This document shows, in pieces, positions 10,956 to 13,564 of a stretch of 15,534 nt of DNA. The notes under the pieces were generated by a model. It made no database searches and was not told the DNA's origin. It saw nothing but the letters and a program-made list of their open reading frames with translations. The stretch spans positions 1-15,534 of the forward strand of contig CAIWCQ010000056.1 of assembly GCA_903911165.1 (NCBI GenBank). The letters are read 5' to 3'. The stretch is from an uncultured Actinomycetes bacterium (GTDB taxonomy: Bacteria > Actinomycetota > Actinomycetes > Mycobacteriales > Mycobacteriaceae). The position numbers were made by a program, and so were the translations under genes. The first letter of the stretch is position 1, and each line of letters starts with the position of its first letter.

Positions 10956-11000
10956 GCAGATGCAGTCAGTGCAAATGCGGTCAGTGCAGATGCAGGAGGT
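10956..11000. repeat. 15-bp tandem repeat (3 copies) over the DUF4337 stop codon
   Basis: Three 15-bp units follow one another: GCAGATGCAGTCAGT, GCAAATGCGGTCAGT and GCAGATGCAGGAGGT. The first two differ at two bases; the third diverges at its end. In the minus-strand reading frame the units encode Leu-His-rich codons, and the TGA stop at 10983-10981 is repeated in frame 15 bases downstream. Confidence 0.8.
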
Positions 11001-11625
11001 GCGGCGCGAACATCCCGAACGCCATGAAAGCCAGCCCGATCAGGAACGCCAGCCCACCGGCCAGAAAGCCGGGACCAATCAGCCCGGTTATCACGGCCGC
11101 AGAGGCGAGCACGATGCCTACCTGGAACCCGGCTGATGCGAACTCATAGTTGTGGTACTTCGCGAGCATCTCGTCGCGAAGATGCTCGGACTCGACGGCG
11201 CGGACTCTGAGTTCTTCAGTCCCCTCGCCCTTTCCATCGGCGGCACTGGGTTCGGAACGATAACGCTCGGCGGTTGCGGTCCACTCAGCGATTTGCTTTT
11301 CTGTCGCGGCCCTCTGATTCGGGTCAGTAATGCCGGTGAGGTTCAGCGTGGCCTGTTCAGCGGCGATCACATTCGAGGAACGTCTGACATTCTTCGCCTG
11401 AAAGAAGTTCCACAAATTCGACGCCTCGATCTGAGCGTTGAGAGCCGTGGTCTGCGCACTCTTCCCGGCGGTCTCAGCAAAGGCCAAAAACAGCGCCAGC
11501 ACCGCAATCACCAGCGCCATTCGCTTATTGGCGACCGAGATACCACCGAGGCCGCCGCCGTGGTCCTCGTCGTGTTGGATCTTATGCTCCATCTCGTGCT
11601 GCACCGCGTGTACGCCGCGACTCAC
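10981..11625 (-). CDS. DUF4337 membrane protein with N-terminal histidine ladder
   Basis: The 214-residue product fits the DUF4337 family: one membrane segment near residues 35-51 (ALVIAVLALFLAFAETAGKSAQT), a soluble helical, charged region at about 55-160, and two membrane segments at about 164-184 and 187-207. The family has no established function. The N-terminus has histidines at residues 6, 10, 14, 18 and 22, and the C-terminus ends HLLHLH, so both tails could bind metal; this is inference. The start is GTG 11625, preceded by AGAGG six bases away; an internal ATG at residue 12 lacks a good ribosome site. The stop lies in a 15-bp tandem repeat that provides a second in-frame stop. It is downstream of the tRNA-Leu gene on the same strand. 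Confidence 0.82.
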   Translation of the reverse strand: MSRGVHAVQHEMEHKIQHDEDHGGGLGGISVANKRMALVIAVLALFLAFAETAGKSAQTTALNAQIEASNLWNFFQAKNVRRSSNVIAAEQATLNLTGITDPNQRAATEKQIAEWTATAERYRSEPSAADGKGEGTEELRVRAVESEHLRDEMLAKYHNYEFASAGFQVGIVLASAAVITGLIGPGFLAGGLAFLIGLAFMAFGMFAPHLLHLH

Positions 11626-11764
11626 ATCACACCTCTATCGTCTTCCGTGGCACCGGTGCTTGGCGGGCCTCTCACCGGCAGGTTTCGCCGACGTTATCAC
11701 CCCGGCGTTGCTGGCGTGGCCCCTGGCGAATGACAACACTCCGATGCCCCCGATGGAAATCCGG
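11626..11764. other. Spacer between tRNA-Leu and the DUF4337 gene
   Basis: The 139-bp spacer has no supported gene. It contains the DUF4337 ribosome binding site next to 11626 and presumably that gene's promoter and the tRNA 3' processing region. No clear terminator hairpin with a T-run was found after the tRNA. Confidence 0.5.
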
Positions 11765-11838
11765 TGCCCCCAGTCGGACTCGAACCGACACTGTGCGGAT
11801 TTTAAGTCCGCTGCCTCTGCCAATTGGGCTATGGGGGC
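11765..11838 (-). tRNA. tRNA-Leu (anticodon UAA)
   Basis: The minus strand folds into a complete 74-nt cloverleaf. The acceptor stem is GCCCCCA/TGGGGGC, the D arm contains TTGGCAGAGG, the anticodon stem GCGGA/TCCGC encloses CTTAAAA (anticodon TAA), and the T arm is GTCGG-TTCGAGT-CCGAC. The discriminator base is A73, as expected for leucine. The variable region is only five bases (ACAGT), whereas bacterial tRNA-Leu normally has a long variable arm. CCA is not encoded (CCGG follows), so it must be added by the CCA enzyme. The fold is certain; the leucine identity rests on the anticodon and A73. Confidence 0.93.
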
Positions 11839-11899: not shown

Positions 11900-11936
11900 A
11901 ACTATGGTGAACACCGACCGACCGCAACTATGGTGA
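11900..11936 (+). promoter_or_regulatory. Direct repeat upstream of the Cys-rich peptide gene
   Basis: AACTATGGTGA occurs twice, at 11900-11910 and 11926-11936, with starts 26 bp apart (about 2.5 helical turns). Each copy contains TATGGT, a match to the TANNNT -10 pattern, so they may be tandem promoters or regulator sites. The second ends 40 bp before the ATG. Confidence 0.5.
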
Positions 11937-11976
11937 GAACTGGCCCCCCTACCGGGTCATTGAAGGAGAGACTGAC

Positions 11977-12087
11977 ATGGGTATTCCTGAGACCAAGCGC
12001 GTCGGCGGCTGCACCTGCCGCTGCAACGTCTGCAAGGGCGGCACGCATTGCCGCAACATCGGCAGCGGTTGCAAGGTCAAGCTCTAA
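11977..12087 (+). CDS. 36-residue cysteine-rich peptide, candidate metallothionein
   Basis: The open frame from ATG 11977 to TAA 12085-12087 encodes 36 residues. Six are cysteines (12, 14, 16, 19, 25, 32) and one is histidine (24); there are no aromatic residues. The core CTCRCNVC followed by HC gives the CxC and CxxC spacing typical of metallothioneins, which bind Cu(I), Zn or Cd through thiolates. Lys and Arg residues are scattered throughout. AAGGAGAG ends six bases before the ATG, the strongest ribosome site in the region, which supports real translation. It does not match what I recall of M. tuberculosis MymT. A direct repeat lies upstream; ppx2 converges 29 bases downstream. A regulatory peptide or peptide natural-product precursor is possible, but no modification enzyme is nearby. 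Metal binding is inferred from composition. Confidence 0.78.
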   Translation: MGIPETKRVGGCTCRCNVCKGGTHCRNIGSGCKVKL

Positions 12088-12116: not shown

Positions 12117-13076
12117 TCACCTGGGCGGAATCGACAGCGCGATCCCGTCGAGAATGTCGTGCTCGCTCACGACGATTTCGTCGATCCCGGCCCGTTCACC
12201 TAATGCGGCTGCGAGTTCCTGAACGACGATCGCCCCGCCGCCGATCACGTCCACCCGGCCCTCGTGCATCGGTCCCAGCGCTGCGCGCTGCGCGCGGGTC
12301 ATCCCGATCAACTCGTCGCACACCGCCAGCATGTCGCTGAACCGGATCCGAGAAAGATGAATGGCCTCAGAGTCATAGGTGTCCATACCCTGCGCCAGCG
12401 CCGCGATCGTCGTGAAGGTGCCGGCCACCCCCACCCAGGTCTTGGCCCCTTCCACCGGGACGACGCGCAGCGCCTCGGCAAGACGTTCGCGAACCACCTC
12501 CCGGGCGGCAGCCACCTCGGAAGTCGTCGGCGGATCGGAATGCAGGCAACGCTCGGTCATCCGCACGCAACCGATATCAGCCGAATAGCTGGACTTCACA
12601 CCATTACTATCGCCGAGTACCACTTCGGTGGATCCGCCACCCAGATCGACGACAACGAATGGTGCTGCAGCAGAATCTAATTCGCCGACCGCGCCGTTGA
12701 AGGACAGTTCGGCTTCCTGGGATCCGGTAATGACCTCAGCGATCGCACCGGGAACCACATCGCCCAGCACGGAGGCCGTCATCGCGAAGAACTCATCGCG
12801 GTTGGCCGCGTCCCGGGTGGCCGATGTCGCCACCATCCGCAGCCTGCGAACACCGTGATTACGCAGCAGCACCGAGTAGTCCGCCAGTGCCGCCTCGGTG
12901 CGCACCAGCGCGTCGGCGGAAAACTGTCCGGTGGCGTCGACACCCTCGCCGAGTCGGACTATCCGCATTTCCCGATGCAAGTCACGCAGCCGGTGATCAA
13001 CCCGGTCCGCGATCAGCAACCGGATCGAGTTGGTTCCGCAGTCAATCGCCGCCACGGTGTTCGCCTCAGCTGTCAC
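12117..13076 (-). CDS. ppx2: Ppx/GppA-family exopolyphosphatase, Ppx2 type
   Basis: Ppx/GppA phosphatases hydrolyse terminal phosphates of polyphosphate or the 5'-phosphate of pppGpp. The 319-residue protein has the ASKHA-fold signatures: AIDCGTNSIRLLIAD near residues 10-24, the VVVDLGGGSTEVVLG phosphate-binding segment in the middle, and GVAGTFTTIAAL later. It is the short, two-lobe form without the extra C-terminal domain and matches M. tuberculosis Rv1026 (PPX2) in length and place. The frame is open far upstream, but GTG 13076 is right: it overlaps the DUF501 stop as GTGA and follows AGGGGAG by five bases. It is the last gene of the eno-ftsB-DUF501-ppx2 run. In vivo it likely affects polyphosphate levels and the stringent response. 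Confidence 0.93.
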   Translation of the reverse strand: MTAEANTVAAIDCGTNSIRLLIADRVDHRLRDLHREMRIVRLGEGVDATGQFSADALVRTEAALADYSVLLRNHGVRRLRMVATSATRDAANRDEFFAMTASVLGDVVPGAIAEVITGSQEAELSFNGAVGELDSAAAPFVVVDLGGGSTEVVLGDSNGVKSSYSADIGCVRMTERCLHSDPPTTSEVAAAREVVRERLAEALRVVPVEGAKTWVGVAGTFTTIAALAQGMDTYDSEAIHLSRIRFSDMLAVCDELIGMTRAQRAALGPMHEGRVDVIGGGAIVVQELAAALGERAGIDEIVVSEHDILDGIALSIPPR

Positions 13077-13564
13077 GTCCACTCCCCTGCCACCAGTATC
13101 CCGGCCATCGCTGCCTCGCCGGCTACCATCGCCAGCGCCTGATCGCCCATCGGGTTGACCCCCCGGCCCTTGGCCAACGCGTGCGCCATTACCACGTGCA
13201 GACACTTCACCCGGTCGGGCATGCCACCGCCGGAGAAGGTGATGCCGAGTGGTTCGATCGCATCACGCTCGGCCAGGTAAGACTCGTGGGCCCGCCAATA
13301 CGCCCCGGCCAATTCCGGATCATCCCGCAGCGCGGCGGTCATCGTCCGCATCACGCCCTCGGACTCCAGCCGGCTGGCCGCAGCGGTCAGCACCGGATGC
13401 GTCAGGTAGTACAGCGTTGGGAACGGCGTGCCATCGCCGAGCCGCGGCGCCGTCTTCACCACACCCGGCTCTCCGTTCGGACATCGGTAGGCGATCTCGA
13501 GCACACCACGCGGCTCCCGACCGAGCTGGCGGGCCACCGCGTCGAGATCAGCGTGGTCAACCAC
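13073..13564 (-). CDS. DUF501 family protein (Rv1025-like)
   Basis: A 163-residue conserved actinobacterial protein of unknown function, family DUF501, always recognised by its place between ftsB and ppx. Visible conserved parts are IAYRCPNGEPGVVKTAPRL, TPFPTLYYLTHP, and a C-terminal GGGMPDRVKCLHVVMAHALAKG. Cysteines and histidines in the last motif (CLH, MAH) could form an active or metal site, which is speculation. The open frame reaches 13651 through the proline-coding tail of ftsB read in another frame; GTG 13564, overlapping the ftsB stop by eight bases, gives the usual family length. No good Shine-Dalgarno is seen, so translation is probably coupled to ftsB. Its own TGA overlaps the ppx2 GTG. 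Confidence 0.9.
   Translation of the reverse strand: MVDHADLDAVARQLGREPRGVLEIAYRCPNGEPGVVKTAPRLGDGTPFPTLYYLTHPVLTAAASRLESEGVMRTMTAALRDDPELAGAYWRAHESYLAERDAIEPLGITFSGGGMPDRVKCLHVVMAHALAKGRGVNPMGDQALAMVAGEAAMAGILVAGEWT

Follow-up and report, generated by a model that had tools for sequence, protein, structure and literature searches.

Bacterial metallothioneins of the SmtA/BmtA type, which we take to be the proteins of the Pfam family Metallothio_Pro, are small metal-thiolate proteins that use Cys and His residues. In mycobacteria, the only metallothionein named in the portions of the literature that we found is MymT of M. tuberculosis, a 53-aa copper metallothionein that the source describes as a Cu(I)-binding member of the RicR regulon (PMC10470581).

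The peptide studied here is encoded in a 15,534-nt stretch of DNA, referred to below as the window. It is likewise small and carries a Cys/His set, but no Pfam or NCBIfam model matches either the window peptide (0 families, E up to 10) or five relatives (0 families, E up to 0.1), and by these models it falls outside the SmtA/BmtA family. With MymT it shares small size, Cys richness and a mycobacterial host; metal-thiolate binding has been shown for MymT, whereas it is proposed for the window peptide, and the two are set apart here by length alone (36 aa compared with the 53 aa given in that section of the source; PMC10470581). Short, Cys-rich upstream ORFs overlooked by annotation have been described in mycobacteria as well. 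In the excerpts at hand, these precede other genes as proposed cis regulators (PMC4633059, PMC9094748), whereas the window peptide is monocistronic and selected at the level of its protein sequence. Finally, bufferins are MNIO-modified, Cys-rich peptides with a link to copper, a few of them fused to FGE domains (PMC12452194). They have Sec signals and a modifying enzyme, in contrast to the window's genome, which is without the modifying-enzyme family PF05114, and to the peptide, in which no signal-like stretch is apparent by eye.

A 36-codon gene convergent with ppx2

The first-pass annotation had pointed to a 36-codon frame with a strong ribosome site and six Cys, and precisely this frame is found on the plus strand, with AAGGAG upstream. 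The features of the region are as follows.

11763..11838, minus strand, tRNA-Leu (anticodon taa), divergent neighbour
11903..11908, plus strand, second TATGGT within another AACTATGGTGA, 26 bp upstream of the promoter-like element in the next line, possible tandem promoter
11929..11934, plus strand, -10-like TATGGT within AACTATGGTGA, promoter-like
11941..11959, plus strand, inverted repeat TGGCCC-ccctacc-GGGTCA, hairpin candidate in the 5' UTR, directly 5' of the ribosome site
11963..11968, plus strand, Shine-Dalgarno site AAGGAG, eight bases 5' of the ATG
11977..12087, plus strand, gene of the Cys6-His peptide, 36 codons, coordinates with the stop included, ATG start
12117..13205, minus strand, ppx2-type gene, convergent neighbour and synteny anchor

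Translation gives a 36-aa peptide with Cys at residues 12, 14, 16, 19, 25 and 32 and with His24 adjoining Cys25. The pattern is CxCxCxxC-x4-HC-x6-C, which confirms the CxCxC and CxxC spacing and the HC pair noted earlier. No hydrophobic or Sec-signal-like stretch is apparent by eye in the window peptide. In 81 of 85 member rows an AGGAG stands no more than 20 nt from the chosen start, the starts having been picked partly by AGGAG match. Since 29 bases separate the stops of the peptide gene and of its convergent neighbour, presumably a ppx2-type exopolyphosphatase, the peptide gene is monocistronic.

The ppx2 gene is near and convergent with the peptide gene in 56 of 59 named loci, and in the other three the available sequence ends at or near the peptide gene. 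In 21 of the 59, ppx2 starts no more than 250 nt from the first Cys codon; in other named loci a DUF4383-type gene intervenes, or genes that we take to be kdpDE lie upstream. Records titled as MAGs make up 33 of the 59, and among the others are M. sphagni, M. rhodesiae, M. litorale and M. fortuitum-group species; the loci come from a scan with two short patterns, in which absence of a species means little. The window neighbours tRNA-Leu and ppx2 have no metal link, and no close NmtR was found in the window's genome (best match 32% identity).

Near tRNA-Leu, the minus strand at 10981-11625 encodes a predicted membrane-type protein of 214 aa. It has no tblastn match in any of the 59 named loci, possibly because it was inserted in a single lineage. 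The mycobacterial locus with ppx2 and eno is also found in three metagenome-assembled records (L099, L100 and L120) whose title, Bifidobacterium breve, looks wrong.

Conservation and range of the peptide family

Cys content by itself is not clearly beyond chance. The peptide ORF alone has at least six Cys among ORFs of 20-60 aa in the window, and when 200 sequences of matching make-up were simulated with a first-order Markov model, 52 had at least one such ORF. Eight possible starts of small ORFs (20-80 aa) in the window follow a strong ribosome site, and no other than that of the peptide opens an ORF with more than two Cys. What sets the ORF apart from chance is conservation, not Cys richness. 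For 253 pairs from 23 equal-length window-type sequences, hand-picked from the 85 member rows, pN/pS was 0.40 in frame, whereas shifting the frame gave 1.31 and 0.85, and the nearest relative in another genome (L002) encodes an identical peptide with four synonymous changes. Unconserved Cys or frequent frameshifts had been named as grounds for abandoning the proposal; instead, the Cys are kept in relatives, the low pN/pS indicates purifying selection, and an internal stop was seen in one sequence (G610) among the matches listed of the genus profile search. These data show that the peptide frame is conserved and under purifying selection. A functionless chance ORF, which the frequency of Cys-rich short ORFs in the simulated windows might suggest, is already refuted by conservation, pN/pS and synteny, and its probability is negligible.

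We conclude that the 36-aa ORF is a genuine monocistronic gene, overlooked and kept by natural selection in many mycobacteria. The suggestion that gene callers miss it is true in part: relatives do occur in 56 protein clusters, where the source name, if there is one, reads hypothetical, 'calcium-binding protein' or 'EGF-like domain-containing protein', and metallothionein is not a source name in any of the 56. No published description of the family was found among the titles and abstract openings listed from the open-licence literature. It is a real, unnamed, genus-restricted gene family, and it points to genes of fewer than 40 codons that annotation omits or misnames.

Used as a single query, the peptide matched 25 of 198 genus genomes below E 1e-8, its own genome included, and the best match outside the genus in 251 genomes drawn from the family had an E of 0.0027. 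Relatives were found with a 28-row profile in at least 167 of 396 genus genomes (E<=1e-3). In the order, at least 22 of 348 genomes matched the profile at E<=0.01, 19 within the genus and three outside it with weak matches (E 1.9e-4, 2.4e-3 and 5.9e-3), and in the class at least 7 of 246 matched a 25-row profile at E<=1e-3, every one in the genus; the profile counts are lower bounds, at most 19 (genus), 22 (order) and 29 (class) first-look candidates being scored per genome. The family is found almost only in the window's genus, Mycobacterium sensu lato.

With 3.14 Mb (97.6% complete), the window's own genome (G000) is small by the standards of the genus and has kept the peptide nonetheless; several further matches fall in genomes below 4 Mb. 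Locus L092 comes from a different family within the order; there, a CxCxCxxC-x4-HC motif near position 1521 on the plus strand ends a 175-codon open frame and stands alone among 24 genomes of that family.

Relatives are 32-58 aa long and share the core CxCxCxxC-x(3-4)-HC-x(5-6)-C. Six Cys, His24 and Asn27 are invariant in 28 aligned rows for which the Cys pattern was the sole filter; the rows represent 28 of 34 distinct peptides, and the remaining six also keep the six Cys, His and Asn. Arg15 and Lys35 are invariant in 28 window-type rows. Among the 85 member rows, His and Asn were a condition of selection, which makes these rows no test of either residue, and loci L034-L036, L038-L043, L045 and L048-L055, which are without the Cys pattern, were dropped as chance matches. 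Invariance of the Asn after HC was rejected for the family at large, as two diverged matches (L092, outside the family, and L093, in the genus) keep His without Asn. Tail and place divide the relatives into the window type (..NIGSGCKVKL), the 'PNC' and 'AAGC' types, the latter beside a presumably PhoD-like gene, an HW-ending type and longer members with a charged head, and some genomes (e.g. G123 and G529) have two members.

Part of this Cys/His set could hold one structural zinc, with basic ends binding RNA or DNA, as in a zinc knuckle. In the CCHC knuckle the spacing is Cx2Cx4Hx4C, and C16-x2-C19-x4-H24 of the peptide fits its first part; the peptide is also rich in Lys and Arg, including the invariant Arg15 and Lys35. 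The remainder does not fit, however: the Cys that follow His24 stand at +1 and +8, the distance from His to the last Cys is x7 or x6 rather than x4, and the Cys-to-His gap shrinks to x3 in L197 and L201. Six fixed Cys exceed the need of one zinc site, and profile searches of solved structures found no relative (one match each, E 0.21 and 1.5). We therefore regard a zinc-knuckle-like protein as rather unlikely. The AlphaFold model of the peptide has low confidence (mean pLDDT 61.8), which fits a peptide that would fold around metal and equally an unfolded one.

Searches of PHROGs with the window peptide and two relatives, of phages with the window peptide and of plasmids with one close relative gave no match. 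The diverged L092 variant had one weak match to an unnamed PHROG (E 0.14), and two diverged variants matched phages only at E 2 or worse.

Upstream elements

The two AACTATGGTGA copies of the window form a direct repeat at 11900-11936 on the plus strand, 26 bp apart, and CTATnGT (n not A) occurs upstream in 55 of 85 member rows. In the nearest relative, L002, a single AACTATGGTGA copy is present in the upstream stretch shown.

The inverted repeat next to the ribosome site, which close relatives have at this position too, was assessed by shuffling. For the window stem TGGCCC/GGGTCA, 2 of 60 shuffles were equally good in a single-sequence test, and such shuffles favour the stem in many close relatives too, though not in many others. 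RNAalifold predicted no common stem on 25 untrimmed 5' UTRs. A set of 13 hand-trimmed rows has 91% of its cells paired, compared with at most 44% in slid versions of the alignment, and three of its seven pairs are altered on both sides; the percentage paired was reached in 0 of 500 shuffles, the number of pairs altered on both sides in 17 and the number of pair types in 306. These rows are 12 of the 25 UTRs and L124, trimmed to one register, which favours the stem; left out were 11 of the 25 for another register, the window among them, and two repeats. A 5' UTR hairpin is likely in the window's clade.

A hairpin at this place, together with the Cys-rich small ORFs that the excerpts describe in mycobacteria (PMC4633059, PMC9094748) and the DUF4383-type gene that lies downstream on the same strand in some other loci, would suit a cysteine-responsive leader peptide acting as an attenuator. 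Because the next gene in the window is convergent, 29 bases past the stop, there is no co-transcribed downstream gene to attenuate; ppx2, convergent, also starts within the 250-nt distance given above in 21 of the 59 named loci, and it is the protein sequence that is conserved, not merely a run of Cys. We consider such a leader highly improbable.

The palindrome TCGTnATATGTTGAT precedes 20 of 85 members with up to two mismatches. It was rejected as an ArsR-type operator: matches beyond the peptide are few, and the nmtR promoter carries a different repeat. In nine genomes, a longer form with up to two mismatches had five matches, of which all but one are at the peptide; the reversed control had three. 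Given matches near the control level and the different repeat at nmtR, no regulator is claimed, and since TCGTnATATGTTGAT does not recur at other genes it gives no sign of a metal regulon. In the eleven loci L146-L156, the 180 nt upstream of the NmtR-like gene contain a conserved repeat (ACATGTA..GATTGAAATGTAT-like) that is unlike the peptide's element.

Metal genes beside relatives and a metallothionein-like reading

Loci L146-L156 belong to species that we take to be the M. fortuitum group, and in all 11, the reference L149 included, the peptide gene lies between an ArsR/SmtB regulator and a ZIP-like gene. The regulator gene starts ∼0.6 kb and ends ∼0.24 kb before the first Cys codon, the ZIP-like gene starts 0.15-0.29 kb past it, a P1B heavy-metal ATPase gene adjoins and diverges from the regulator, and ppx2 is found at 2.4-5.5 kb in 10 of the 11. 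Models were run on L149 only. Its regulator matches NF033788 with 86.9 bits (cut-off 55) and has NmtR (2lkp) as best PDB match (E 3.9e-47), its ATPase matches TIGR01525 with 539 bits (cut-off 346), and its ZIP-like protein matches BbZIP (7z6m, E 3.2e-5) and no Pfam model at E 0.1. NmtR is described as sensing Ni(II)/Co(II) and as having a P-type efflux ATPase under its control (PMC7055735). Because the species are close, these 11 loci count as one evolutionary event. A ZIP-like gene is also near the more diverged members L163, L164 and L165.

A second setting is that of the HW-tailed subgroup, in which a gene for formylglycine-generating enzyme (FGE), identified by a PF03781 match for one locus, lies directly upstream on the same strand in three of five genomes (G019, G054 and G159). 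In G019, the FGE and peptide genes overlap at ATGA. No FGE was found in G165 or in the ∼1.5 kb of flank examined in G096. FGEs are cuproenzymes according to the portion of the source at hand (PMC12452194). The settings of relatives point to metal handling, though not to one metal.

Metallothioneins are marked by their small size and by many Cys in CxC/CxxC order, and the window peptide (36 aa, six Cys) has both features, which relatives keep. Six thiols and one His suit one small metal-thiolate cluster, either Cu4S6 or two divalent ions. We put at roughly 60% the probability that the family works like metallothioneins, i.e. as mini metal-thiolate peptides whose six thiols and imidazole would coordinate a soft or borderline metal in a small cluster, to be buffered or handed over in the cytosol. 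The original proposal of a metallothionein gains from the fixed His that accompanies six fixed Cys and from the metal genes that adjoin some relatives; the genes around the window peptide are silent on metals, and for this member we infer binding from the peptide and its kin. Different metals appear to go with different relatives: one group sits at a Ni/Co-type locus, and another is linked to FGE, a copper enzyme. As these contexts differ, copper(I) or zinc are no more than first guesses for the window member.

The same Cys might be oxidised and reduced rather than serve as metal ligands, in a thiol redox buffer or an Fe-S/NO-responsive peptide, and six Cys in 36 aa with no confident fold would allow this. 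A plain thiol pool, however, needs neither an invariant His nor a fixed order of residues, and the neighbours of relatives, where informative, point to metal handling; this makes a redox role quite improbable. Still less credit is due to a ribosomally made precursor that is modified into a copper-binding peptide. Copper-buffering Cys-rich precursors do exist, a few of them fused to FGE domains, as the same portion of the bufferin source describes (PMC12452194), but PF05114 is absent from six of seven member-bearing genomes searched, the window's included, the sole match, in G049, lies on contig C26 whereas the G049 peptide is on C23, and the window peptide has no Sec-signal-like stretch by eye.

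Returning to the metallothionein-like reading, the different settings would be accommodated by a genus-specific mini metal-thiolate kit, built on one Cys6-His core and copied to several sites, each with its own metal task. The kit might handle Ni/Co beside an NmtR-like sensor and P1B pump, deliver copper to FGE by means of a coupled downstream gene, and act at the ppx2 site as a general buffer, kept even in small-genome lineages. We offer this only tentatively, as possible rather than probable. A second mycobacterial metallothionein family, if real and with members in at least 167 of the 396 genus genomes searched, would change the description of mycobacterial metal buffering, and from the FGE-linked members one can frame a testable idea of the way in which metal reaches a copper enzyme.

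In one further subgroup (L161 and L167), the peptide gene is near what we presume to be hydrogenase-maturation-like genes, another hint of a metalloenzyme setting.
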